A stretch of DNA of 10,795 nt from Alphaproteobacteria bacterium (lineage in GTDB: Bacteria > Pseudomonadota > Alphaproteobacteria > Micavibrionales > Micavibrionaceae), in NCBI GenBank assembly GCA_030427765.1, contig JAUICS010000022.1:1-10795 (forward strand), in the 5' to 3' direction. Shown here piece after piece: positions 1-10,795 of the stretch. The position numbers and the translations under genes are program-made. The notes under the pieces are model-generated. The model was given only the letters and a program-made list of their open reading frames with translations. It did no database searches and was not told the origin of the DNA. Every line of letters starts with the position of its first letter. The first letter of the stretch is position 1.

Positions 1-1
1 C

Positions 2-298
2 GGAAAAGAAGCTATGAATTTTCTGGATGCCGCAATTGATCTTGTCGATCTTGTTATCTGTGACTGGAACATGCCTAAAATGACCGGTGTGGAAGTCTTA
101 AGGCAACTTCGCAGTGTCTATGCGACAATCCCGTTCCTGATGCTGACGGCCAGAAGTGATACGGAATCGGTTTTTGAAGCAAAAGCCGCCGGCGTCACCG
201 CCTATATCCGCAAGCCATTTTCACCGGCACAGCTAGAGGTCAAAATACGTAAGATTGTAACGCGTATGAAAAAAGAAAAGGCCGAGGCAACATCATAA
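2..298 (+). CDS. Single-domain CheY-like response regulator, 3' part only
   Basis: Receiver domain that would be phosphorylated by a histidine kinase. The reading frame is open to the left edge (GGA AAA GAA GCT precede the first visible ATG at 14), so the gene is cut by the window and the ATG at 14 is an internal methionine. Seen: the phosphoacceptor Asp in VICDWNMPKMTG (about residue 21 of the fragment), the conserved Thr in FLMLTARSD, and the conserved Lys in YIRKPF followed by the last helix. The protein ends about 30 residues after that Lys in a charged tail, so there is no output domain. It is therefore a stand-alone receiver, as in chemotaxis or phosphorelay proteins. The missing N-terminus should hold the first beta strand and the acidic pair. 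Its partner kinase is not in the window. The family call is firm; the pathway is unknown. Confidence 0.9.
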   Translation, partial: GKEAMNFLDAAIDLVDLVICDWNMPKMTGVEVLRQLRSVYATIPFLMLTARSDTESVFEAKAAGVTAYIRKPFSPAQLEVKIRKIVTRMKKEKAEATS

Positions 299-328
299 CT
301 TTGGAAATTGTCATTCCGTTTGCCCTCA

Positions 329-334
329 TATAAT
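329..334 (+). promoter_or_regulatory. Candidate -10 box for glpK (TATAAT)
   Basis: A perfect TATAAT lies eight bases before the glpK ATG. A possible -35 element TTGTCA sits at 308-313 with a short 15-base spacer. With this -10, transcription would start at about 341-343, at or next to the ATG, and there is no Shine-Dalgarno sequence in front of glpK. This suggests a leaderless or near-leaderless message. The inference comes from spacing alone. Confidence 0.45.
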
Positions 335-342
335 CTTTAAGT

Positions 343-1827
343 ATGACAAAGACATTTATCCTTTCCATTGATCAAGGCACGACAAGCAGCCGTGCCATAT
401 TATTCGATACAGCCGGAAATATTGTTTCCATGGCACAAAAGGAATTAACACAGTATTACCCGCATAAAGGATGGGTCGAACACAGCCCATCCGAAATATG
501 GGCGGATACGTTATATTGCCTGAATAAACTGGCCCATGATTTTCATGAGGAGGTCAGCAATATTGTTTCGATCGGCATCACGAACCAGCGCGAAACAACC
601 ATCCTGTGGAACCGCAAAACCGGAAAGGCAATATACCCCGCCATTGTCTGGCAAGATGGCCGTACGGCACGGTTTTGTGATTCCTTGAAAAATGATGAGA
701 ACGAAAAAACCATTACACAAAAGACAGGCCTGTTACTCTCTCCCTATTTCTCGGCGTCAAAAATCACATGGATACTTGATAACGTGGATGGCGCACGAAA
801 AATGGCCGAGGATGGCGATATCGCATTTGGAACGGTTGATTGCTACCTGCTTTGGAAACTTACAAAGGGCCGTGTTCACTCTACCGATATTACAAACGCA
901 TCACGCACGTTGCTTTTCAACACGCGTGAGATGATATGGGATGATGAATTGCTTAATATGTTCAACATTCCGAAATCTATCTTGCCGGATGTTCAGGACA
1001 ATGCATATGATTTCGGCGTTATGGACAGTGCAATTATGGGGCGGGACATTCCCATCATGGGGATGGCGGGGGACCAGCACGCCGCCCTGATCGGACAGGC
1101 ATGTTTTGATGACGGTATGATTAAATCAACCTATGGCACGGGCTGTTTTGCCCTAATGAACATCGGCGACACGTTCCGCCTATCCGACAATAAACTTCTG
1201 ACAACACCGGGTTATCGTTTTGACGGGCACATGGCATATGCGCTTGAAGGGTCAATATTTGTTGCCGGTGCCGCCATCCAGTGGCTACGTGATAATTTAG
1301 GGGTTATACGCAAAGCCGAAGAAAGCGAGACATTGGCAACATCCGTAAATGATACAAATGGTGTTTATTTTGTACCGGCCTTTGCCGGTTTGGGTGCACC
1401 TTATTGGAACGCAGATGTGAAAGCCGCCATATTCGGATTAAGCCGCGAAAGCAACGCCGCGCATATTACACGGGCCGCACTGGAGGCACAGGCATATCAG
1501 ACAAAAGACCTTCTAAACGCCATGATAAGTGATTACGGGCATAATATGTCCATTATTCGTGCAGATGGCGGGTTGGTATCAAATGATTTTGTATGTCAGT
1601 TTATTGCCGACATTCTGCAATGTCCGATCGAAATTCCAAAAGTCTCGGAAACAACCGCGCTAGGCGCCGCATATCTGGCCGGTTATCAGGCAGGGATATA
1701 TAAAAGCCTTGATGACATTAAAGAAACATGGGCATTAAACCGACAGTTTTCACCAACAATTTCGGCAGAAGAAGCGCATACACGTTATGAGGGGTGGCAG
1801 CACGCAATCAAAACCCTGCTTGGTTAA
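343..1827 (+). CDS. glpK: Glycerol kinase
   Basis: Cytoplasmic FGGY-family kinase that converts glycerol and ATP to sn-glycerol 3-phosphate, feeding phospholipid synthesis or glycolysis. At 494 residues it is the usual length. Seen in order: the N-terminal phosphate-binding loop SIDQGTTSSRAILFD (8-22), NQRETT with the glycerol-contacting Arg83-Glu84, the WQDGRT motif, Tyr135, the catalytic Asp244 in MAGDQHAAL, the ATP-site loop KSTYGTGC, and the C-terminal signature ADGGLVSNDF. The loop just before the catalytic Asp reads SAIMGRDIPI and lacks the GGKGG-type segment that binds fructose 1,6-bisphosphate in the E. coli enzyme, so that feedback control may be absent (inference). No glpF, glpD or glp regulator is adjacent; the gene appears to be transcribed alone. 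The ATG at 343 is fixed by the phosphate-loop strand starting a few residues later. It converges on the next gene with a 4-base gap. Confidence 0.97.
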   Translation: MTKTFILSIDQGTTSSRAILFDTAGNIVSMAQKELTQYYPHKGWVEHSPSEIWADTLYCLNKLAHDFHEEVSNIVSIGITNQRETTILWNRKTGKAIYPAIVWQDGRTARFCDSLKNDENEKTITQKTGLLLSPYFSASKITWILDNVDGARKMAEDGDIAFGTVDCYLLWKLTKGRVHSTDITNASRTLLFNTREMIWDDELLNMFNIPKSILPDVQDNAYDFGVMDSAIMGRDIPIMGMAGDQHAALIGQACFDDGMIKSTYGTGCFALMNIGDTFRLSDNKLLTTPGYRFDGHMAYALEGSIFVAGAAIQWLRDNLGVIRKAEESETLATSVNDTNGVYFVPAFAGLGAPYWNADVKAAIFGLSRESNAAHITRAALEAQAYQTKDLLNAMISDYGHNMSIIRADGGLVSNDFVCQFIADILQCPIEIPKVSETTALGAAYLAGYQAGIYKSLDDIKETWALNRQFSPTISAEEAHTRYEGWQHAIKTLLG

Positions 1828-1831
1828 TTAT

Positions 1832-2659
1832 TTAACCGCGGCTGAATCCCTGTATTCCGCTATCCACATCCTTATTCAGCGCAAGGTCCAGCCCCAGAAC
1901 ATGATCAATGCCGCGCGGATGTATATTTGCCTCGATACCCTGCGACAATGTCCGGCCGATTGAACATGTATCGCCATCAACCTGCAATGTACGGATTTGC
2001 CATCCGTCCTGTGACGGCATATCGCTATGACCGTCGGCAGACGAGTCCACGCTCACGATTATTGGGCCATGTGTTGCGCTTGTCAGACTAAAATAAGGGG
2101 CGTTCGACATGTTAAAATCATCGGAAGAATTGTTGTTAAATTCATGCAGCATATTGTGGCATGCCGCAGGAATCGTATTCGGATACATTGATCCGGTGCG
2201 GGCGTGGAAAAAATGCGGGCCATTCGTCGCGATTAAACGGAAATCGGTCCCGCTATCAAGCTCCTCCACACTTTCACCATCAAAGTTATAAAGCGTCCAT
2301 TCTCCATCAGGATTGGCCGCCAGTGCCAGACGCACATCAACAGGAATGGTCTGCGCACCAAACGGCGTTACGAGTTGCCGTATCACCGGCCCCATAGTCA
2401 TAACAATCTGCTGGTTACGTTCGGCAAGCGTATCACGAAATGATTCAATCATGGTGCGACGGGCCTCCATCGCGGCGGCGTCATCCTGCTCGACCTCACC
2501 GGCTTGTGGCTGTGCTTGTGCCTGTACCAGACGGAAGTTTTCGGTCAGTTCAATGCGATTTGGCTGGGTAAGGTTTGCAATTTCGGCATTGGTAAGTGGC
2601 GGAACATCCGCCGTACCTAACGCTGCGGCGAGAGCCGCAACAGTTGACTTGATAAACAT
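1832..2659 (-). CDS. Unrecognised, probably exported protein, 275 residues
   Basis: I do not recognise this family. The N-terminus (MFIKSTVAALAAALGTADVPP) resembles a short signal peptide: one Lys, an Ala/Leu-rich core, then a polar region. Periplasmic or surface export is therefore likely but not certain. Residues 47-66 are rich in Gln, Ala and Glu and look like a flexible linker. Residues 66-100 look helical. From about 108 onward the protein looks beta-rich and globular, with only two cysteines (167 and 232), which could form a disulfide given the Dsb proteins nearby. There are no transmembrane helices in the body, no repeats and no obvious catalytic motif. An AGGGA ribosome-binding site lies 7 bases before the ATG. 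The strand choice rests on a full-length coherent protein with a ribosome-binding site; the plus-strand ORFs here read as low-quality, basic peptides. Convergent with glpK. Confidence 0.75.
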   Translation of the reverse strand: MFIKSTVAALAAALGTADVPPLTNAEIANLTQPNRIELTENFRLVQAQAQPQAGEVEQDDAAAMEARRTMIESFRDTLAERNQQIVMTMGPVIRQLVTPFGAQTIPVDVRLALAANPDGEWTLYNFDGESVEELDSGTDFRLIATNGPHFFHARTGSMYPNTIPAACHNMLHEFNNNSSDDFNMSNAPYFSLTSATHGPIIVSVDSSADGHSDMPSQDGWQIRTLQVDGDTCSIGRTLSQGIEANIHPRGIDHVLGLDLALNKDVDSGIQGFSRG

Positions 2660-2687
2660 TATATTTTCCCTGTACGTTTTGTATTTT

Positions 2688-2706
2688 TACGTAATATTGT
2701 TACGTA
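2688..2706. promoter_or_regulatory. Perfect inverted repeat TACGTAA-N5-TTACGTA, candidate operator
   Basis: TACGTAA at 2688-2694 and its reverse complement TTACGTA at 2700-2706 are separated by TATTG. The repeat lies about 30 bases upstream of the start of the unrecognised exported-protein gene on the minus strand, in an AT-rich stretch where its promoter should be. The symmetry and placement fit a dimeric repressor or activator site. A role as an RNA hairpin is less likely because the stem is AT-rich. No -35/-10 pair could be placed with confidence. Confidence 0.4.
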
Positions 2707-2774
2707 TTATTATTATTTTGTTACTTTATCAGATGTGTTTGGGAAATCAAGTTGAATGTATTAGCAAATGTTAT

Positions 2775-3419
2775 TTAGGATAAGAGCCTACGTTCCAGCG
2801 CCGCAACATATATCTCCGCGCTTTCCTTACGGCTGGCGGGCGGCTTTATATGTTTGATCGTTTTAAAATCACGCTTCATGCGGTCCAGCAGTGTTTTTTC
2901 TGTACCGCCTTCAAACACTTTTGCTACAAAATGGCCACCCTCTTTCAGAACTTCCAGCGCGAAATCATATGCGGCCTCAACCAGACACATGATTTGCAAG
3001 TGATCGGTCCCTTTGTGGCCGGATGTGTTGGGCGCCATATCGCTCATGACAATATCGGCCATACCGCCCAGTTTTTCTTTCAATAAATCCGGTGCGGCAT
3101 CATCCATAAAATCCATTTGAATGGCATCTACCCCTTCCATCGGATCAATAGCTAGCAAATCAATCGCCACAACCTTTCCCGCACCCTTGCGGCGCGCAAC
3201 CTGACACCATGCGCCCGGGGCGGCACCAAGATCAACAACAACAGACCCTTGTTTCAGGATTTTTAATTTTTCATCAAGCTCAACCAGCTTGTACGCCGAG
3301 CGGGCACGATACCCCTCATCTTTTGCTTTTCTGACATACGGGTCACGCTCCTGTCGTTCCAGCCAGCGGCGGGACGACGGTTTCCGTTTCTTGATCATGC
3401 GCTTTTCACGTGATGCCAT
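2775..3419 (-). CDS. rlmE: 23S rRNA 2'-O-ribose methyltransferase RlmE (FtsJ/RrmJ)
   Basis: SAM-dependent enzyme that methylates the 2'-O of the A-loop uridine (U2552 in E. coli) of 23S rRNA during late 50S assembly. At 214 residues it matches the family. Seen: a basic N-terminal rRNA-binding segment (MASREKRMIKKRKPSSRRWL), RSAYKL with catalytic Lys44, the SAM-binding motif VVDLGAAPGAW (61-71), Asp127 in MSDMAPN, Lys167 in FVAKVF, and Glu202 in SAEIYV. This is the full K-D-K-E tetrad, with the last three spaced as in E. coli RrmJ. The start at 3419 is supported by an AGAGG ribosome-binding site 7 bases upstream, which overlaps the stop region of the preceding membrane-protein gene. The two genes are therefore probably co-transcribed and coupled. 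The ppx/gppA neighbour common in alphaproteobacteria is not adjacent here. Confidence 0.96.
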   Translation of the reverse strand: MASREKRMIKKRKPSSRRWLERQERDPYVRKAKDEGYRARSAYKLVELDEKLKILKQGSVVVDLGAAPGAWCQVARRKGAGKVVAIDLLAIDPMEGVDAIQMDFMDDAAPDLLKEKLGGMADIVMSDMAPNTSGHKGTDHLQIMCLVEAAYDFALEVLKEGGHFVAKVFEGGTEKTLLDRMKRDFKTIKHIKPPASRKESAEIYVAALERRLLS

Positions 3420-3429
3420 CTTGAAACCT

Positions 3430-3759
3430 CTACAAAATCATCAAAAATGTTGTGGCGACGAAGGCCATAAAAAATAAACTGATGGCCGCCGCCATATACA
3501 CAAACCCCTTCGTGCCGGGCGAAAAATACGACAATATCAGGAACAGCATGATAAATACGCTGTATATAATCAGGCCGCGTTGAAACGGTGTGGCATCAAT
3601 CAAATTGAAAAATCCTTTTTCGAAGCCCAGAACCTGAATAAATTCCAGCTGCATCCGCAACGCAGCAATACAGCACAGCACAAATACAAAAGCTTTTATG
3701 CGCTGCCCTTTGTGTACAATTGCCAGTGACACCGGAAGCCATATCAAATCAAGCCACAT
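3430..3759 (-). CDS. Small four-helix integral membrane protein of unknown function
   Basis: Not recognised. The C-terminal about 105 residues contain four hydrophobic segments: roughly WLDLIWLPVSLAIV, AFVFVLCCIAAL, GLIIYSVFIMLFLILSYF and the final MAAAISLFFMAFVATTFLMI. The product is thus a polytopic inner-membrane protein with almost no soluble part. It ends 10 bases before rlmE, and the rlmE ribosome-binding site abuts its TAG stop, so the two form an operon. The start is uncertain. The ATG at 3759 gives 109 residues but has no good ribosome-binding site. A TTG at 3804 gives 124 residues and is preceded by AAAGGA at a slightly long spacing. The frame stays open to 3999, but that would overlap the divergent protease gene by about 100 bases. 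I chose 3759 as the conservative start. Confidence 0.62.
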   Translation of the reverse strand: MWLDLIWLPVSLAIVHKGQRIKAFVFVLCCIAALRMQLEFIQVLGFEKGFFNLIDATPFQRGLIIYSVFIMLFLILSYFSPGTKGFVYMAAAISLFFMAFVATTFLMIL

Positions 3760-3896
3760 TTGCCACTGGAACGTATCGCCAGATATATTTTGTATTTCCT
3801 CCAAAATAAAATGGATCCTTTCTTTTCTTGGCCTATATAACCTTATATGCTCGAATAAGTCTGTAACGTTCTGCCGTTCGGCATCGAATATAACAT

Positions 3897-3902
3897 TATA
3901 AT
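3897..3902 (+). promoter_or_regulatory. Candidate -10 box for the M48 protease (TATAAT)
   Basis: A perfect TATAAT ends one base before the first ATG of the protease gene (3904). If used, transcription would start near 3909, at the second in-frame ATG (3910), giving a leaderless message. Neither ATG has a Shine-Dalgarno sequence. No convincing -35 element is visible at 16-18 bases. The surrounding ATTATAAT is palindromic, so it could also serve the divergent membrane-protein/rlmE operon. Confidence 0.35.
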
Positions 3903-3903
3903 C

Positions 3904-5280
3904 ATGATTATGAGATTGCGTACTTTTAAAAATATCATAGCAGTTGCCGTGCTTGTCATGGCCATAATGTATGGACTCATGCCATCGGCAAATGCACAAA
4001 GTATTATCCGCGATACCGAGATTGAAAACACAATCAAAAAATGGTTCACGCCGGTTGTCGAAGCCGCGCGCATGGATATCGGCGGCGTCAGAATTATTAT
4101 TGTTAACGACCCTCAGTTAAATGCATTTGTCGCGGGCGGGCCGAATATATTTGTATTTACGGGTTTGATTTTGGAAACCGAAACGCCGGATGAACTTATC
4201 GGCGTTCTTGCCCACGAACTCGGTCACATAAGTGGCGGCCACCTTATCCGCGGCAGGGATGCCATGGAACGCGCATCCTATGAAAGTGTTCTGGGTTCGA
4301 TTATCGGTATCGGCGCAGCCATATTGACGGGTGAAAGTGGCGCGGCAGGCGCCATCACATCCGGCGCGCAGTCAACGGCTCTGCGCGGATATCTTGCGCA
4401 TAGCCGGGTTCAGGAAGCCAGTGCGGACCAGGCGGCGTTAACCTATCTTGACGGCGCGGGAATAAACCCATCGGGCCTGACCGGTTTTCTTGAAAAACTG
4501 CAACGAAACGAGGTGAGAAGCCAGCAAACACAGGATGTTGAATACTTGCGCACACACCCATTGACCGAAAAACGGATACAGCTTCTTGAAAACGCGGTTC
4601 AAAACTCCAGCCATTATAACAGTCCCGTGCCCGATGACTGGATTGAGGAACATAAACGCATGAAGGCAAAAATTCTTGCCTTCATGGAACCCGGGCAGGT
4701 TGTCTGGACCTATGACGACCGTGATATGTCCGTTCCCGCAAAATATGCGCGTGCAATTGCCGCATACCGGCTTAACGGCTTTGAAAATGCCATTTCCCAA
4801 ATTGATAACCTGATTAAACAAGAGCCTGACAACCCATATTTTTATGAATTAAAAGGTCAGGTGTTATTTGATTTCGGTAAAATTAAAGACGCTGCAGAGG
4901 TCTACAAAACAGCAGATAATATTAAGAAAGACAGCGGACTGATAAAAATATCCTATGCGCAGGCCTTAATTGAGTCAGGACGCAGTAACACGGAAAATAT
5001 CAATACCGCTATTCGCGTTCTCAAAAGTGCCGAGACATTAGAGACACGCTCATCATATCTACACCGTCTTTTGGCCACGGCATACGGTATTAATGGCCAG
5101 GACGCACATGCAAAACTGCATTTGGCGGAAGAAGCCGTATTAAAACGAAAATGGGATATTGCAAAACAAATGGCAAAACAGGCAAAGGACAGTTTCCCTG
5201 AAAATAGCCGTGAATGGATACAGGCAGAGGATATTCTCGGGTTCGTAAAACAACATGGAAAGGATGAGGACGCAAATTAG
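3904..5280 (+). CDS. Periplasmic M48-family zinc metalloprotease with TPRs (BepA/YfgC-like)
   Basis: Zinc protease of the BepA type, which in E. coli works with the BAM complex and promotes maturation or degradation of outer-membrane proteins such as LptD. Seen: a signal peptide (basic MRLR, hydrophobic core, likely cut after PSANA at about residue 31), the zinc site HELGH (104-108) inside AHELGHISGGH, the third zinc ligand Glu171 in EASADQAAL, a Gly/Ala-rich segment between them (about 130-160), a short linker, and a helical C-terminal half (about 270-458) with TPR-like helix pairs such as residues 282-340. The length of 458 is close to the family norm. Two ATGs (3904 and 3910) are possible; both give the same signal peptide, and the candidate -10 box favours 3910. 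A presumed LptD-related role would match lptE elsewhere in the window, but that is inference. Symbol withheld because bepA orthology is not proven. Confidence 0.92.
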   Translation: MIMRLRTFKNIIAVAVLVMAIMYGLMPSANAQSIIRDTEIENTIKKWFTPVVEAARMDIGGVRIIIVNDPQLNAFVAGGPNIFVFTGLILETETPDELIGVLAHELGHISGGHLIRGRDAMERASYESVLGSIIGIGAAILTGESGAAGAITSGAQSTALRGYLAHSRVQEASADQAALTYLDGAGINPSGLTGFLEKLQRNEVRSQQTQDVEYLRTHPLTEKRIQLLENAVQNSSHYNSPVPDDWIEEHKRMKAKILAFMEPGQVVWTYDDRDMSVPAKYARAIAAYRLNGFENAISQIDNLIKQEPDNPYFYELKGQVLFDFGKIKDAAEVYKTADNIKKDSGLIKISYAQALIESGRSNTENINTAIRVLKSAETLETRSSYLHRLLATAYGINGQDAHAKLHLAEEAVLKRKWDIAKQMAKQAKDSFPENSREWIQAEDILGFVKQHGKDEDAN

Positions 5281-5318
5281 ATAAGCCGACATTTTCACCG
5301 TTATGTTCAGGGAAAAAT

Positions 5319-5347
5319 GTGACGCTATCGACTTTTTTGATTACAAT
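5319..5347 (+). promoter_or_regulatory. Candidate promoter for the first dsbA-like gene
   Basis: GTGACG (5319-5324) and TACAAT (5342-5347) are separated by 17 bases. The predicted start near 5354 leaves a leader of about 24 bases with a GGAG ribosome-binding site. It could let the two Dsb genes be expressed independently of the upstream protease gene. The match is only moderate and the region is AT-rich, so chance is possible. Confidence 0.3.
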
Positions 5348-5377
5348 ATTAATATTAATAGAAAATGGAGTGACATT

Positions 5378-6142
5378 ATGACGTTTATTAAAGGGCTGAA
5401 AACTTTTTGTGGTGTGTTGGCAATCAGTGCGATTGCGATTGGCGCATCATCAACATTCTCTGCAAAGGCAGAGGGTATAACAGACGCGCAGAAAAAAGAT
5501 ATTGAGGCCGTCATCGAAAATTACCTGATGGAAAATCCGGAAATTATTTTTGAAAGCATTAATAAATACCGCGATGAACAACGCGTGGCAGAAATAGAAC
5601 AACAAAAAGAGGCCTTAAAAACACGTCAGGATGACATTATCAGCGCAAGCAGCCCATCTGTTGGAAGTGAAAAACCGACAGTTACTGTGGTCGAATTTTT
5701 TGATTACAACTGCGGTTACTGTAAAAAAGCAATAGACGGCCTGGCACGCATCGTTAAAGAAGACAAAGATGTGAAAGTCGTTTTCAAAGAATTTCCGATC
5801 TTGTCTGAATCATCCGAAATGGCTGCTCGCTGGGCGCTGGCGGCAGATAAACAGGGTAAGTATTTTGAATACCATATTGCATTGATGGAATTCAAAGGCC
5901 CGAAAAACGAAGATACATTATCCAATCTGGCCAAAAAAGTTGGATTGGACGTGGCAAAATTGAAAACAGATGCCGCATCCGATGCCGTATCAGAGGAAAT
6001 CAGAAAGACACGTGAACTTGCGTCCGAACTTGGCATTAACGGGACACCGGCTTTCATTATCGGTGATCAATTGTCACCCGGTTTTGTGCCTTATGAAGGT
6101 ATGAAATCATTGATTGATTCCGCGAAGCAGGCCAGTAACTAA
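5378..6142 (+). CDS. Periplasmic DsbA-family thiol oxidoreductase, ScsC-like
   Basis: Thioredoxin-fold protein for disulfide formation or isomerisation in the periplasm. I chose the ATG at 5378 because GGAG lies about 7 bases upstream and a clean signal peptide follows (MTFIKGLKTFCGVLAISAIA, likely cut after AKA near residue 31). The frame is open further upstream to 5303, but that start would bury the signal peptide. Seen: an N-terminal helix region typical of ScsC-type proteins (about 38-80, IENYLMENPEIIFESINKYR and a charged helix), which in known relatives drives oligomerisation; then strand VVEFFDY, active site CGYC (112-115), a helical insertion, and the cis-proline loop NGTPAF (Pro224) before the last strands. 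The 254-residue length fits. Oxidase versus isomerase activity cannot be told from sequence; the N-terminal helix hints at a multimeric isomerase. Followed 23 bases later by a second DsbA-like gene. Confidence 0.9.
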   Translation: MTFIKGLKTFCGVLAISAIAIGASSTFSAKAEGITDAQKKDIEAVIENYLMENPEIIFESINKYRDEQRVAEIEQQKEALKTRQDDIISASSPSVGSEKPTVTVVEFFDYNCGYCKKAIDGLARIVKEDKDVKVVFKEFPILSESSEMAARWALAADKQGKYFEYHIALMEFKGPKNEDTLSNLAKKVGLDVAKLKTDAASDAVSEEIRKTRELASELGINGTPAFIIGDQLSPGFVPYEGMKSLIDSAKQASN

Positions 6143-6165
6143 ACCGGTACAGTTTGCAGACAAAC

Positions 6166-6792
6166 ATGATATCACGTAAAGTCATCATACATATTATCTA
6201 CGGAATCCTGATAATCATGTCAGGGTTCCTTGGATATAATATGCATTCTGTATCGCAAGCCTATTCGAGTGCGACAGACACACCGCAATCTATGGTGATG
6301 GGACCGGAAACCAGTGATAAGGAACTGGTCGTCTTTTTCGATTATGGTTGCCCCGCATGTCATACGGCATACCCGCTGCTAAAACGATTGCACAAAGACG
6401 AGCCCGATGTGCGTATTGTGCTCCGCCCATTCCCGCGTATGGGTCCAATGTCAAATAAACTGGCCGGATTTGCATTGGCCGCTGCCGAGAAAGACAAATT
6501 TTGGGACTTCAACAATGCTGTTATCGGAAATGATGACGCGCTAAATGAGGCAAAAATCGAACGTATTCTTCTTGATATAGGCCTTAATCCGGCAAATATG
6601 GAGAAAGAAAGTGACTCCGAATTTGTAAGGGAACAGCTTGATAAAACATTCGAAGTTGCAAGATTTCTAAATATTGGCGGCACACCAACATTCGTTGTCG
6701 GGCGTGAAATCCATATCTATCCGGCCGAAGACCCGACACTTAATGATTTAAAAGGTATTCTGGGTCTCATTGAAAAAGAACCGGCATCATAA
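6166..6792 (+). CDS. Membrane-anchored DsbA-family thioredoxin-like protein
   Basis: Second thioredoxin-fold oxidoreductase, 208 residues. The N-terminus (MISRKVIIHIIYGILIIMSGFLGY) has a basic start and a long hydrophobic segment without a clear signal-peptidase site, so it is probably a signal anchor with the catalytic domain in the periplasm. Seen: strand LVVFFDYGCPACH with active site CPAC (62-65), a helical insertion (about 98-160), and the cis-proline loop GGTPTFVVG (Pro174). It lacks the oligomerisation helix of the preceding gene. A TTG at 6154 would add four residues; neither start has a strong ribosome-binding site, and translational coupling to the upstream gene (23-base gap) is likely. 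The pair may divide work between a free and an anchored enzyme, or one may maintain c-type cytochrome thiols; both are inference. The last 6 bases overlap the convergent pagL-like gene. Confidence 0.87.
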   Translation: MISRKVIIHIIYGILIIMSGFLGYNMHSVSQAYSSATDTPQSMVMGPETSDKELVVFFDYGCPACHTAYPLLKRLHKDEPDVRIVLRPFPRMGPMSNKLAGFALAAAEKDKFWDFNNAVIGNDDALNEAKIERILLDIGLNPANMEKESDSEFVREQLDKTFEVARFLNIGGTPTFVVGREIHIYPAEDPTLNDLKGILGLIEKEPAS

Positions 6793-7338
6793 GTCCGTAC
6801 CGCTAGTACCAACATGATCATCAAGAGGAATGTGGTAGTAAATTGATAAAACCTCCGCCCCCGGGTTTTCATCACCCAAAGACAGATTTGAAATATGGCT
6901 GAAACCTAAACTAATGCGGTGATCGTTTTCAAGAACGTAGCCAATTTCGATCTGAGAACGAAATTCCAGACCGTATCCCAAATCCTTGCCGCCGCCATCT
7001 TCGTAACCACCCAACGTCAGACTAGGCGTAAAAAACACATCTTCGAAAATCCAGAAATCACGAAAAAATCCGCCTGCCACATAAAAATTACCGTCAGAAG
7101 TCGTTTCAAGTGCCATAAGCGGTTTTATGCCATGTATAAGGGATTCACCAAAACGAATTTCGGCACGTAAATCCAACGCCTTGTCATTATCAAGAATATC
7201 AAAATATCCTGCCGATAATAGAAGATACCGCGATGTTTCGGGCTCCACCTTTGGTTCAAGCAGAAAGCCAGATGCCTGCGCTGAGGATACAAAAATTATT
7301 AACGAAAACATACAACCCAGAAACGGCGCAATACGCAT
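6787..7338 (-). CDS. pagL: PagL-like lipid A 3-O-deacylase (acyloxyacyl hydrolase family)
   Basis: Outer-membrane beta-barrel enzyme that removes the 3-O acyl chain from lipid A. Seen: signal peptide (MRIAPFLGCMFSLIIFVSSAQA, residues 1-22), alternating hydrophobic strands typical of a small barrel, and the family signature near the C-terminus, FSHISN...NPGAE. With the start at 7338, His148, Ser150 and Glu162 match the PagL catalytic triad in identity and in spacing (+2 and +14; H126, S128, E140 in the Pseudomonas enzyme). The terminal strand LSIYYHIP is followed by 12 more polar residues (DDHVGTSGTDL end), whereas barrels usually end at an aromatic residue. The stop lies inside the convergent Dsb gene. 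An ATG at 7365 would add nine residues; I prefer 7338 because it gives the cleaner signal peptide, though neither start has a ribosome-binding site. Family call firm; the exact acyl-chain specificity is inferred. Confidence 0.85.
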   Translation of the reverse strand: MRIAPFLGCMFSLIIFVSSAQASGFLLEPKVEPETSRYLLLSAGYFDILDNDKALDLRAEIRFGESLIHGIKPLMALETTSDGNFYVAGGFFRDFWIFEDVFFTPSLTLGGYEDGGGKDLGYGLEFRSQIEIGYVLENDHRISLGFSHISNLSLGDENPGAEVLSIYYHIPLDDHVGTSGTDL

Positions 7339-7455
7339 TCTTGATTGACTAAATAAACACCACATAACGCAATATATTATTCTTTAAAACGGTAGTATGC
7401 CGTATTGGTCAAAAATGTGCATTTTAATTTTCTGAAATATCCAGAATTTTGTGTA

Positions 7456-7484
7456 TTGACACATTCGGAGAAATATTCTTTATA
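7456..7484 (+). promoter_or_regulatory. Sigma-70-type promoter for the radical SAM/kinase module
   Basis: A perfect -35 TTGACA (7456-7461), a 17-base spacer and a TTTATA -10 (7479-7484) make this the best-formed promoter in the window. Predicted transcription start is near 7491, leaving a leader of about 60 bases that contains the inverted repeat at 7518-7534. It faces the radical SAM gene and is divergent from the pagL-like gene. Confidence 0.6.
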
Positions 7485-7517
7485 AAAAGCATAAAAACAA
7501 ATTATTTACGGCATAAT

Positions 7518-7534
7518 TTGTAATTTTATTACAA
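7518..7534. promoter_or_regulatory. Perfect inverted repeat TTGTAAT-TTT-ATTACAA, candidate operator
   Basis: Two 7-base arms are exact reverse complements around a TTT centre. The repeat lies downstream of the predicted transcription start and 19 bases before the radical SAM start codon, just ahead of its AGAGGGG ribosome-binding site (7544-7550). The position fits a repressor site that blocks transcription, or an AT-rich leader hairpin near the ribosome-binding site. It is not a usual terminator, because the stem has only one G/C pair per arm and no U-run precedes the gene. No matching regulator gene is nearby. Confidence 0.5.
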
Positions 7535-7553
7535 AAAGATAATAGAGGGGTCT

Positions 7554-8669
7554 ATGACAAAAGACAATTCAGCACATAAAGCTGACGTACGGCACGTTGT
7601 CTATGAAGACGAAACTGCGCCCGGTGCGCTAAACGTCGAAGAGATTAAAGATACTTTATCTCGTGTTTTTGGGTGGACGCTTGTTCAACGAGATCATAAA
7701 CATTCAGGCTTAAAATCGGCAGACCCGCGCATTACCCATGCATGCGATCACGAATGTCCACATTGCTGGGCCAATCTTTACGGAAAACATATGACCGTCG
7801 AAACCTTTGAGCATGTATTAGACCTTGCTCAGGAAAACGGCCTCACTGAAATCCAATTTACGGGCGGTGAGCCTACACTTAATAAGCAGCTCATCAAAAT
7901 GGCTGAAATGGCTAGAAATCGTGGGTTTCAGACAATTTTGCGAACACATGGCCGTCATATGACACGTGAATTTGATAAGAAAACCGGCAAAACATGGGCT
8001 CAGGCCGTCGCCGAGAACTTTGACGAAATCATCGTATCCATTGACGGAACGGCAGAGGCCAATTTCAAGATGCGGCCTGTCATCGTATACAATAAACGCG
8101 TTGCCAAACAAATGGGCGAAGAACGTTACGCCGAATATTTAACCGAGACGGCACATAAACAATTTGATGAAACAATTGAGGGGTATAGGGCTTTATCACG
8201 AGCCGTTGGTGCCAGAAACGATGTCAGCCTGAAAATTAACACCGTGGCAGCACGGGCAAATCTTGATAACCTTCCTACGTTCGCTACGTATTTGGCAAAA
8301 GGCGTGTCAAACGGAGAGTTTAGGATCGATTTGTGGGATATTGCACAGGTCTTTCCATCACCGGAAAATACGCCGGAGGAACAGGCCGAATATACAATTA
8401 GTGTACAAGAACTATTCCGTACTATGATGAGTGTCACCATGTTTTCTATGAATATCTCCAAGCGCGTAAAACCGGTTACGGATGGACGTTGCCTGATTAT
8501 TGATGAATCCGGCCGCGTCTATGTTGGGGGCGAGGAAAATACAGAACTGGGCACATTAGATGGAACCAACGCGATGCATATATCCGCACATATAGACGGA
8601 TATATGAACCAATATTTATTAACAGAACAGCGCACATCAAGCTATCTCCGCTATGACGCAACACCCTGA
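7554..8669 (+). CDS. Radical SAM enzyme of unknown substrate, paired with a nucleotide kinase
   Basis: Uses a [4Fe-4S] cluster to cleave S-adenosylmethionine to a 5'-deoxyadenosyl radical. Seen: a non-conserved N-terminus (1-50); strand RITHACDHECPHCW with the CxxxCxxC cluster cysteines 64, 68 and 71; the SAM-binding GGEPT (104-108); VSIDGT (161-166); a helical insertion of about 40 residues (172-212); LKINTV (226-231); and a C-terminal stretch RCLIIDESGRVYVGG (312-326) shaped like a SPASM/twitch cap but with only one Cys (313), so no auxiliary iron-sulfur cluster can form there. The protein is 371 residues, with a strong ribosome-binding site (AGAGGGG). The core resembles MoaA/PqqE-like enzymes. 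Viperins share the cluster, KIN(S/T)V and cap pattern and are often found beside nucleotide kinases, but the viperin CNYxC sequence is absent. No peptide precursor gene is visible nearby, which argues against peptide maturation. Substrate unknown. Confidence 0.88.
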   Translation: MTKDNSAHKADVRHVVYEDETAPGALNVEEIKDTLSRVFGWTLVQRDHKHSGLKSADPRITHACDHECPHCWANLYGKHMTVETFEHVLDLAQENGLTEIQFTGGEPTLNKQLIKMAEMARNRGFQTILRTHGRHMTREFDKKTGKTWAQAVAENFDEIIVSIDGTAEANFKMRPVIVYNKRVAKQMGEERYAEYLTETAHKQFDETIEGYRALSRAVGARNDVSLKINTVAARANLDNLPTFATYLAKGVSNGEFRIDLWDIAQVFPSPENTPEEQAEYTISVQELFRTMMSVTMFSMNISKRVKPVTDGRCLIIDESGRVYVGGEENTELGTLDGTNAMHISAHIDGYMNQYLLTEQRTSSYLRYDATP

Positions 8670-8708
8670 CTATGTTTGAGGCCCAATGATTTTTGAGGAA
8701 TGATAATT

Positions 8709-9320
8709 ATGAGCACACCCCGTTTTATTAATCTTGAAGGTTTTGAAGGCGTTGGAAAAACGACACTTGCACAGTGGATTGCCGATACATATGGCTATGT
8801 CTATTTAAAAAGCCCGTCTGGACAATTCCGTGATGTTCGTGACGAATTTGATCAACCCACAACCGACCCCGCGGAACGTATCGGTTTCTATATGGGTGAT
8901 TGTGTTGCCCTGTCATGTAAAATTTCGGCGTTAATGGCCGAAGGGAAAAACGTAGTCCTCGATAGATACGTCTACACAACACGCGCATTTAACCTGTCCG
9001 ACAAAGACTATGATTGCGACATCATTGCACAGATATCCGATGCGTTGTTGCAGCCCGATTGTATACTGTTTGTCGATGCAAATTTTGACACATTATATGA
9101 ACGTATTACAAAACGCGGCTTTTCAGAGAACGATAAATTATTTGTTGATCGTCAGAAATTCGCAGATGTGATGGGAAATTATTGTGAACTTTTAGATGGT
9201 GATGAGAGACTTACCGTCATTGACAACAATGGATCGCTGGAAGATGCAAAACGTCAGATCATGGCCGTTTTAGGGCCACCGCCAGTGAAACTTGTGCCAA
9301 AGACCAATGAATACGTGTAA
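8709..9320 (+). CDS. Thymidylate-kinase-like P-loop nucleotide kinase
   Basis: Predicted to phosphorylate a nucleoside or nucleoside monophosphate with ATP. The start at 8709 is chosen because TGAGGA (8694-8699) is 9 bases upstream of it; the ATG at 8700 would touch that site. Seen in 203 residues: strand FINLEGFEGVGKTT with a Walker A motif (GFEGVGKT, 11-18), the helix after it, LDRYVYTTRAFN with the Asp-Arg pair of thymidylate kinases (85-86), and a lid-like ERITKRGFSENDKLFVDR segment. It departs from true Tmk: the TREPGG motif after the P-loop is replaced by LKSPSGQFRD, and the SSxAYQ motif that follows DRY is replaced by VYTTRAFN. It is therefore unlikely to be the cell's dTMP kinase, and its substrate may be the substrate or product of the radical SAM enzyme 39 bases upstream. 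The two are almost surely one operon. It converges on lptE with only 9 bases between stops. Confidence 0.85.
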   Translation: MSTPRFINLEGFEGVGKTTLAQWIADTYGYVYLKSPSGQFRDVRDEFDQPTTDPAERIGFYMGDCVALSCKISALMAEGKNVVLDRYVYTTRAFNLSDKDYDCDIIAQISDALLQPDCILFVDANFDTLYERITKRGFSENDKLFVDRQKFADVMGNYCELLDGDERLTVIDNNGSLEDAKRQIMAVLGPPPVKLVPKTNEYV

Positions 9321-9329
9321 TTAGAAGGC

Positions 9330-9866
9330 TTATTTCTGTTCGTCCAGGAACAGGGCGACATTAATTTCAATATGGCGCGCCATATCGTGAAGGGCGTTTT
9401 CCAGTGCCTTTTCCCGCGATACGCGGGTTGCATACTGGCTGTCCAGAATGTTGTAACTGGCGAATGATCGAAGTTCACGCGATAAAACAACCTTGCCGGA
9501 TTTAATATCACGCAGTTTCATATTACTTGATAATTTCAGCTGCGCCCGCGTGATATCAGAATCTTCCGTTACATCAAATTCAACGGTACGTTGTTTGACC
9601 GGACGCACGTCAAGGATGTATTCGTAGTTGCCGCGTTCACCAGCAGAATAAAATGAATCAAGAAGCTGGTTCCGTAATATCTGGCCCTCACGGTCCGCGA
9701 TAATTGAAATTTTTACCTTGGCCAGACTTTGCCCAACGGATGAACCCGCATTAAATGCCGCACGGTCCGCATATAGAGGTTTATAGCCACATGCGCCAAG
9801 ATTTATGACGGTAAAGCCCATAAATAATATCAAAAACGCATGAATTTTTTTATCAAACAACGACAT
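9330..9866 (-). CDS. lptE: LPS-assembly lipoprotein LptE
   Basis: Outer-membrane lipoprotein that plugs the LptD barrel and helps insert lipopolysaccharide into the outer leaflet. Seen: a lipoprotein signal peptide with hydrophobic core and lipobox LGAC, giving lipidated Cys26, followed at once by GYKPLY, the hallmark of LptE. The remainder (178 residues) has the expected alternating strands and two helices (about residues 56-73 and 150-170). The ATG at 9866 lies inside the end of leuS, overlapping by 14 bases, so translation is coupled. The leuS-lptE order is typical of alphaproteobacteria, where holA (DNA polymerase III delta) commonly follows; here the next gene is the convergent kinase instead. 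No terminator is visible in the 9-base gap. Confidence 0.93.
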   Translation of the reverse strand: MSLFDKKIHAFLILFMGFTVINLGACGYKPLYADRAAFNAGSSVGQSLAKVKISIIADREGQILRNQLLDSFYSAGERGNYEYILDVRPVKQRTVEFDVTEDSDITRAQLKLSSNMKLRDIKSGKVVLSRELRSFASYNILDSQYATRVSREKALENALHDMARHIEINVALFLDEQK

Positions 9867-10795
9867 TTACAATTTTATTTGGTACGACAATGACCTTGCG
9901 GATATCCTTACCATCAATGGCCTTTTGGACTGACGGGGATGACAGGGCCTCTTTCTCTGTGGCTTCCTTATCCGCGTTTTTCGGCAACGTAATTGTGGCC
10001 TTGACCTTACCATTTACCTGAACGGCGATGGTAACCGTATCATCTTCAAGCAATGATTTATCATATTCCGGCCATGGAGTCTTAGCGAGCATTTCGTCAT
10101 GGCCAAGATGTTGCCACAATTCTTCACAAATATGCGGGATCATCGGGTTGAAACACCGAATAAGGGCTTCCATCCCTTCGCGGTAAACCCAGCGCGCATC
10201 ATCCGTTTGACCCTTCATATTGCCAAGGGCATTACTTAGCTCCCTTAGGCGGGCCACGGCTTTATTCATATGGAATCCATTGATATGGTCTGCCGTTTCC
10301 TTGATGGTCCGGTGAATATCACGGCGAACAGCCATCGCATCCGGCCCGAAACTATCGGGTTTCGGCGTATCCTTAGCCGGAATATCAAATGCAGGTTCCA
10401 TAACCATGCGGTAAAGGCGGTTCATGTAACGCCATGCACCTTCTAATCCGGCCTCCGTCCATTCAAGGTCTCGTTCGGGCGGCGAGTCCGATAATATAAA
10501 GAGACGCGCAGCGTCCGCGCCGTATCCCGAGAAAATATCTTCGGGGTCGACAACATTCTTTTTGGATTTGGACATTTTTTCGATGCGTCCTTCTTCAACC
10601 GGCGTGCCATCATCCATTTTGACGTGTTTACCGTCATCATTCTGCTTCACATCGACCGGCAAAACCCATTTCCCGTTCACATCTTTATATGTACGGTGTG
10701 TGATCATCCCTTGCGTAAACAGACATTTAAACGGTTCTTTCACATCAAGATAACCACATTGATTTAAGGCTTTTGTGAAAAAACGCGCATACAAA
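9853..10795 (-). CDS. leuS: Leucyl-tRNA synthetase, C-terminal part
   Basis: Class I aminoacyl-tRNA synthetase charging tRNA-Leu. Only the last 314 or so residues are here and the gene runs off the right edge; the TTG at the edge is an internal Leu (LYARFFTKAL), not a start. Seen: the end of the catalytic domain (YARFFTKAL, FTQGMI), the signature loop KMSKSKKNVVDP (about residues 73-84 of the fragment; HIGH lies outside), the helical anticodon-binding domain with MIPHICEELW, and the C-terminal domain (VAVQVNGKVKATI ... VPNKIVNVVV) that contacts the tRNA elbow. Length from KMSKS to the end fits bacterial LeuS. It overlaps lptE by 14 bases and is upstream in the same operon. No frameshift or damage is visible in this portion. 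Confidence 0.96.
   Translation of the reverse strand, partial: LYARFFTKALNQCGYLDVKEPFKCLFTQGMITHRTYKDVNGKWVLPVDVKQNDDGKHVKMDDGTPVEEGRIEKMSKSKKNVVDPEDIFSGYGADAARLFILSDSPPERDLEWTEAGLEGAWRYMNRLYRMVMEPAFDIPAKDTPKPDSFGPDAMAVRRDIHRTIKETADHINGFHMNKAVARLRELSNALGNMKGQTDDARWVYREGMEALIRCFNPMIPHICEELWQHLGHDEMLAKTPWPEYDKSLLEDDTVTIAVQVNGKVKATITLPKNADKEATEKEALSSPSVQKAIDGKDIRKVIVVPNKIVNVVV

Follow-up and report, generated by a model that had tools for sequence, protein, structure and literature searches.

The DNA analysed here comprises positions 1 to 10,795 (forward strand) of contig JAUICS010000022.1 (assembly GCA_030427765.1) of an Alphaproteobacteria bacterium from the order Micavibrionales, family Micavibrionaceae, and this whole stretch of 10,795 nucleotides is referred to as the window. 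It carries two adjoining genes on the same strand, the first encoding a radical S-adenosylmethionine (SAM) enzyme and the second a P-loop kinase that resembles thymidylate kinase (TMPK). Both open reading frames (ORFs) are intact, and the Pfam matches, PF04055 for the first protein (4.8e-13) and PF02223 (Thymidylate_kin) for the second (5.5e-19), lie far above chance. An AGAGGGG ribosome-binding site precedes the start of the radical SAM gene. The kinase reading frame offers two possible start codons, ATG 8700 and ATG 8709. The latter is the probable start, because GAGGA at 8695-8699 suits 8709 and not 8700, and it leaves a gap of 39 bases between the genes. The tight gene pair described in an initial annotation, made from the sequence alone, is thus borne out.

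Table 1 Features of the radical SAM-kinase locus (positions in the window).
Feature	Position	Strand	Basis
Radical SAM gene, predicted viperin fold, 371 aa, rare clade apart from canonical viperins	7554..8669	+	Intact ORF; Pfam, NCBIfam, PADLOC, tree, models
Asp57 in place of viperin Asn	7722..7724	+	Column mapping
CDHECPHC, [4Fe-4S]/SAM motif (C64, C68, C71)	7743..7766	+	Sequence; three Cys in 12/12 clade rows with letters there
GGEPT, SAM-binding motif, residues 104-108	7863..7877	+	Sequence, alignment
Asp262 in place of viperin Lys	8337..8339	+	Column mapping
R304-x-K306...R312-C313 in place of viperin E-x-N...S-Y	8463..8492	+	Column mapping
P-loop kinase gene, thymidylate-kinase-like, 203 aa; PDC-M51B best in PADLOC; outside the housekeeping-Tmk type	8709..9320	+	Intact ORF; profiles, trees, motifs
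Walker A, GFEGVGKTT	8739..8765	+	Sequence, alignment
DRYVYTTRAFN: DR motif kept; AFN versus AYQ in 13/16 housekeeping Tmk	8961..8993	+	Alignment
A+T-rich intergenic stretch, 188 bases, 26% G+C; TTGACA 7456-7461, TATAAA 7481, 19 bases apart	7366..7553		By eye; candidate only, promoter not supported

The motifs that had been listed for the radical SAM protein, i.e., CxxxCxxC, GGEPT, LKINTV and a single cysteine in the cap (C313), are all present. The protein contains only four cysteines in total, the three of the cluster motif and C313; the other members of its clade carry four to nine (nine in P0010 and eight in P0016). SPASM/twitch maturases possess additional cysteines for auxiliary clusters and MoaA has C-terminal cysteines for a second cluster. 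With just four cysteines, the window protein should lack an auxiliary cluster of the SPASM kind, and the SPASM/twitch set of cysteines is indeed missing. The combination of CxxxCxxC and GGEP without such a set is the one expected for viperin. MoaA fits poorly, since the protein reaches 36.1 bits with model TIGR02666, where the cut-off is 284.05, and offers only C313 outside the core motif. An enzyme modifying proteins or ribosomally synthesized and post-translationally modified peptides is highly improbable: the cysteines for an auxiliary cluster are absent, none of the ORFs of at least 60 amino acids in the window looks like a precursor, and the partner is a kinase.

Family placement points to viperin. 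The best NCBIfam match of the window protein is the viperin model (NF038283; 59.7 bits, residues 60-324), which remains well below its cut-off of 180, and the runner-up reached 55.7 bits over residues 60-173 only. In PADLOC, the model for prokaryotic viperins (pVips) associated with kinases came first (67.9 bits). As a control, viperin P0018 scored 253 bits with the NCBIfam viperin model. The same model matched all eight clade members scanned (best E value 1.9e-18), and one clade member, P0006 from a Roseivirga metagenome-assembled genome, bears the NCBI name "viperin family antiviral radical SAM protein". When the predicted structures of two clade members were compared with solved structures, the ten best matches were viperins in every case, and in both models the predicted viperin fold extends nearly from end to end. 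A search of 5.8 billion proteins with the single sequence found 12 proteins including the window's own. The profile search yielded 252 hits, of which the best 120 were listed; among these, 17 proteins scored down to 120 bits, again including the window's own and several fragments, and the first protein outside the clade was viperin P0018 with 69 bits. With 16 relatives, some of them fragments, among 5.8 billion proteins, the clade is rare as judged by these searches. The earlier assignment of the enzyme to a position nearer MoaA/PqqE than viperin was therefore partly wrong: curated profiles, the rank of P0018 and the two predicted structures all put viperin first. Two further comparisons did not single out viperin and are not used as evidence for it. 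These are an hhalign comparison of the profile with 262 single sequences and a profile-profile comparison with three control groups (170 for viperin against 279, 176 and 132 for the controls); the core common to all dominates both. Among the papers listed in literature searches, none was recognised as treating this clade, and none combined phage and radical SAM with viperin and nucleotide kinase.

The enzyme has the predicted fold of viperin, yet it is no canonical viperin, because it fails the NCBI cut-off and most viperin-specific residues are lost. A tree of 50 rows was calculated with 12 viperins, 11 clade rows, 5 MoaA and 22 other proteins. P0007, P0009, P0013, P0017, P0011 and P0012 were left out as fragments or proteins of odd length (P0011 and P0012 were omitted from A2 too), and L122, which is below the cut-off, and the stop-bearing L186 were excluded from the viperin set. 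Clade (100/99) and viperins (100/98) formed separate groups, and no clade row fell inside the viperins. Both groups share a weakly supported side of the tree (65/82). Also on this side are two proteins that match the BlsE model best, one above (P0071) and one below (P0025) the BlsE cut-off, while MoaA and the remaining proteins lie opposite. The approximately unbiased (AU) test rejects neither a grouping of the clade with viperins (p 0.505) nor one with MoaA (p 0.276). On the question of MoaA versus viperin, the tree leans to viperin without rejecting MoaA; nearness to viperin is weakly supported by it, and sisterhood is neither shown nor rejected.

An alternative is that the enzyme catalyzes a BlsE-like step in the biosynthesis of a nucleoside antibiotic or a nucleotide sugar, with the kinase acting on a nucleoside or nucleotide intermediate. 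We rate this as unlikely, because the sequence alignment with BlsE hardly extends beyond the core and the neighbourhood contains no other recognised gene for such a pathway.

Differences from viperin become apparent when viperin columns (L184 numbering) are mapped onto the clade by profile-profile alignment, which aligns the two at 17% identity; the counts refer to rows with letters. Asn15, present in 12/12 viperins, corresponds to Asp57 in 12/12 clade rows, and His17, invariant in the 12 viperins, to Arg or Glu in 10/12. Lys201 (12/12 viperins) is replaced by Asp262 in 14/15 clade rows and Glu237 (12/12) by Arg304 in 11/14. Asn239 (10/12), Ser245 (11/12) and Tyr246 (12/12) give way to Lys306 (14/14), Arg312 (14/15) and Cys313 (14/15), respectively. 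Retained in the clade are Asn236 (15/15), Trp261 (14/15) and, from the viperin KIN(T/S)V motif, Lys227 (10/15) and Asn229 (12/15). The column mapped to viperin Arg144 holds Arg or Lys in 11/15 rows; this stretch aligns poorly and Arg174 (15/15) may be the true counterpart. Several of the mapped columns presumably contact cytidine triphosphate (CTP) in mouse viperin. In this alignment, then, the clade does not share the set of viperin-invariant residues outside the core motifs, and the substrate pocket appears to be rebuilt relative to viperin. Phmmer aligned the window protein to solved viperins over the core only (13.5-18.1 bits), whereas the canonical pVip L184, included as a control, reached 76.2-82.7 bits over nearly its whole length.

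The best profile and structural matches, the NCBI name of P0006, the retained Lys227 and Asn229 and the basic residue in the Arg144 column would also suit a very divergent but functionally canonical viperin, which converts a nucleoside triphosphate (NTP) directly to the didehydro-deoxy NTP (ddhNTP) while the kinase replenishes the pool of NTP or ddhNTP. This is improbable, albeit not negligible, given the score at the viperin model, the coherent viperin group that contains no clade row, the core-only phmmer alignments and the replacement of the viperin Asn, Lys, Glu, Asn, Ser and Tyr residues, several of them with opposite charge. The earlier statement that the enzyme is not a viperin holds insofar as the cut-off and the lost residues exclude a canonical one; the absence of CNYxC, on which it had leaned, proves little on its own.

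The kinase is likewise set apart from its housekeeping relatives. In PADLOC it scores best with PDC-M51B (90.7 bits) and reaches 55.6 bits with VakA; "PDC" is taken here to stand for phage-defence candidate. A true M51B scores 241.8 bits with the PDC-M51B model, and three housekeeping Tmk of relatives reached 57-61 bits with PDC-M51B and none to 20.5 bits with VakA (E ≤ 0.001). With the dTMP kinase model TIGR00041, the window kinase obtained 84.0 bits and passed the cut-off of 83.25 by less than one bit. All 16 housekeeping Tmk in the alignment carry the REPGG motif, which is missing from the six other kinases, that of the window included. In the kinase tree, for which 16 of 30 Tmk loci were used, the 16 Tmk from the window's own order lie on one side of a 99/99 branch, while the window kinase and five kinases adjacent to radical SAM genes lie on the other. 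The same split was recovered without the long L199 row (99/98, in a run whose bootstrap had not settled). The window kinase groups with three pVip-adjacent kinases at 89/80 and 89/82, both unstarred, and the M51B kinase was placed, weakly, on the housekeeping side in both trees. All branches of these groupings are long, and the AU test rejects neither a pairing of the window kinase with M51B (p 0.15) nor its position as sister of the housekeeping Tmk (p 0.185). The window kinase stays outside the group formed by the Tmk from its order, even if sisterhood is not rejected. Searching with the kinase by tblastn retrieved enterobacterial Tmk at 64-68 bits, and the one locus opened was an ordinary tmk operon; a protein search that needs shared exact words gave no relative besides the kinase itself. 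Judging from profiles, motifs and trees, this enzyme does not belong to the housekeeping-Tmk type.

Could the two genes be chance neighbours, the kinase being a Tmk that was displaced or evolves fast, next to a radical SAM gene acquired independently? The kinase is the sole Tmk-type match found in the genome, just above the TIGR00041 cut-off, and, as stated above, the AU test does not reject sisterhood with housekeeping Tmk. However, no ordinary tmk was found in an assembly that is 77% complete, so its absence means little, and a Tmk above the same cut-off occurs in 32 of 35 relatives, with best scores of 145.9-188.5 bits. The lack of REPGG, the common strand, the spacing of 39 bases and the neighbourhoods of related kinases described below also speak against chance, which we regard as a rather remote explanation.

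M51B-like kinases are rare. At E ≤ 1e-22 they were found in 2/299 genomes of the phylum, where up to 10 candidates per genome were scored, and at E ≤ 1e-19 in 4/135 genomes of the order, the window being included each time. In all five genomes that carry one under these strict cut-offs, again with the window, the kinase lies directly next to a radical SAM gene. In G713 this neighbour is PDC-M51A (567 bits; Radical_SAM 54.9 bits), which is of the B12 type by best model. In G036, G041 and G040, a protein of 377-379 amino acids with a GCPKxCAYC motif follows within 5 bases after the kinase; their matches to Radical_SAM are weak (29.9, 27.6 and 20.2 bits, cut-off 29.5). As the latter three genomes share one conserved gene cluster, the five genomes represent three independent contexts. 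For comparison, 11 canonical pVip loci were inspected, six genomic (flanks of about 1.5 kb, four also longer) and five on plasmids (4-kb flanks; 5 of 16 plasmid records were opened, and L089 and two E. coli plasmid hits were left aside). A kinase profile finds a kinase at three of them: adjacent in L184/L195, 603 bases away in L189 and 33 bases away in L193; these three kinases form part of the profile. A radical SAM and nucleotide-kinase module remains the best reading of the locus, as first proposed, and the pair is a real module whose earlier description is partly confirmed. The strongest parts of this reading are the predicted fold, the separate clade and the kinase type. The weakest is linkage within the clade, which is seen at a single locus, that of the window.

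The cluster in G036, G041 and G040 from the same order (L199:1630-5778, L240:6188-9591, L241:6105-11216) deserves mention in its own right. The M51B-like kinase and the gene for the GCPKxCAYC protein (without NCBIfam or PADLOC match in G036) are followed by an ORF, whose L199 copy matched nothing in Pfam, a NUDIX gene, as checked in L199, and, by eye, a sugar nucleotidyltransferase-like and an epimerase-like ORF, the latter not within L240. A phage-integrase gene lies upstream in L241 (39.9 bits), while the correspondingly placed ORF of L240 does not reach the cut-off. The arrangement looks like a mobile nucleotide-modifying cluster. The PDC-M51 system of PADLOC, seen at L194:4812-6634, proved to consist of a radical SAM protein nearest B12-type models and a TMPK-like kinase. 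On a Treponema saccharophilum plasmid (L192:441-4804), several overlapping genes on one strand lead up to an annotated viperin, which gives it an unusual set of partners (nucleotidyltransferase-family, pyruvate phosphate dikinase-like and cysteine desulfurase-like genes).

Among 142 genomes of the order and, at E ≤ 1e-15, 372 of the class, the window holds the only clade member found. In the order, 59/142 genomes gave a match, the window included, but all others scored at most 46 bits and none extended past model position 163 except a piece in G065 (214-330). In this genome of the same family, two profile pieces fall in one frame of 329 amino acids (G065:C1:1929201-1929944), which suggests a viperin-like radical SAM gene. 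Other collections likewise gave no further member under the search patterns and thresholds applied. One search of genome contigs found nothing; a pattern search returned 117 relatives (80 kept) with no clade member besides the window. Viral contigs gave 22 loci in one search and none in another, without a clade member, and ORFs in the genome and viral loci scored at most 54 bits with the profile apart from the window's own copies. Phages yielded no match and plasmids three records with the core only. A plasmid search with P0014 produced 22 records; among the matches listed (5 of 22), the first two are Nostoc viperins.

The flanking genes include, by Pfam, two DsbA-like genes, PagL and LptE as well as the end of a class I tRNA synthetase, by eye LeuS, which was matched in 36/36 genomes searched; GlpK, RlmE and an M48-type protease farther away were named by eye alone. 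The gene pair was absent by blastp from 23 relatives' loci fetched around LeuS, in 21 of which (not L210 and L223) both LeuS and LptE were seen. In eight of these 21, a gene of about 340 amino acids lies directly beside LptE, in the one case checked (L203) DNA polymerase III delta, HolA; in the window, LptE (9330-9866) adjoins the kinase at this place. As the other 13 loci have something else there, the spot beside LptE is variable, and the pair looks sporadic at the LeuS/LptE site. The G+C contents of the radical SAM (45.6%) and kinase (43.0%) genes fall inside the range of ten other genes measured (42.5-51.9%) and do not hint at a recent acquisition from a foreign source. The claim that the pair has its own promoter was not borne out: the distance of 19 bases between TTGACA and TATAAA upstream of 7554 is outside the usual spacing, and a sigma-70 scan of 7300-9400 gave no site on the plus strand and one on the minus strand, with 5.2 expected by chance. 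Neither an Rfam family at threshold nor a tRNA was found within the window. A minus-strand ORF of 275 amino acids beside the glpK-like gene (1832-2659) has no Pfam match above the cut-off.

We favour the interpretation that the pair is a nucleotide-modifying module in which a modified nucleotide is made and phosphorylated, plausibly for defence against phages, and give it an even chance. The viperin-fold enzyme would use its single [4Fe-4S] cluster and SAM to generate a 5'-deoxyadenosyl radical, which would take a hydrogen from a nucleotide and so give rise to a modified, e.g., didehydro-deoxy, nucleotide. Because the pocket appears rebuilt, the substrate is probably not an NTP held in the way viperin holds CTP. 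The kinase could phosphorylate a monophosphate, either substrate or product, to the di- or triphosphate able to act, and the final nucleotide would most plausibly poison phage nucleic-acid synthesis. That the substrate is a nucleotide, which reaction it undergoes, which enzyme acts first and that phages are the target are all inferred, whereas computation provides the predicted fold, the intact cluster motif, the lack of auxiliary-cluster cysteines in the window protein, the separate clade, the changes at viperin-specific columns, the kinase type and the recurrent pairing of such kinases with radical SAM genes. Viperins make natural chain terminators. Prokaryotic viperins are reported to produce modified CTP, GTP and UTP and to inhibit phage transcription (PMC12926258, PMC10865869).

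A more far-reaching idea, which we put forward as speculation with a minor chance of being correct, is that a sister family of viperin, in whose pocket the charges that bind the substrate have been swapped, makes chain terminators of a new class from a monophosphate or deoxynucleotide that is then activated by the partner kinase. At least four classes of radical SAM protein, namely canonical viperin, B12-type PDC-M51A, SPL-like proteins and the clade described here, would then have been joined to non-housekeeping TMPK-like kinases, and this kind of kinase would mark a broader range of anti-phage nucleotides made by radical chemistry. A viperin-fold clade with rebuilt pocket and dedicated kinase would point to hitherto unknown nucleotide analogues. 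Its partner also offers a simple handle for finding more such modules, namely a PDC-M51B-like kinase next to a gene of the radical SAM type. The curated viperin model stays below its cut-off on the window protein.

Among known systems, housekeeping Tmk (TIGR00041) shares with the window kinase the fold family, Walker A, the DR(Y/F) motif and a score just above the cut-off; the window kinase differs by its place outside the group of 16 Tmk from its own order, the lack of REPGG and AFN instead of AYQ. BlsE, a cytosylglucuronate decarboxylase and radical SAM enzyme acting on a cytosine nucleoside sugar (PMC3715490), resembles the window enzyme in enzyme class, in the common weak tree group and in a similar fold in the models, and differs in gene context and in a sequence alignment that is essentially limited to the core. 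PDC-M51, on which a literature search found no paper, combines PDC-M51A with PDC-M51B, the best PADLOC match of the window kinase, and thus also places a radical SAM gene beside a kinase. However, the best NCBIfam model for PDC-M51A is that of the B12-dependent KedN5 family (76.9 bits, cut-off 700) and not viperin, and PDC-M51A did not match the enzyme of the window at E ≤ 1. Bernheim reportedly found in 2021 that pVips often lie beside kinases, which agrees with the names of the PADLOC models. The pair of pVip and VakA in PADLOC resembles the window pair in the viperin fold, the single cluster motif of the window enzyme, the adjoining P-loop kinase of the TMPK kind and the order of genes, with the radical SAM gene first as in L184/L195. 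It differs in that the window enzyme reaches only a third of the curated cut-off, belongs to a separate clade and has replaced viperin-specific residues, and in that the window kinase scores better with M51B than with VakA. The pair from the window is best described as a putative variant of the viperin-plus-kinase theme.
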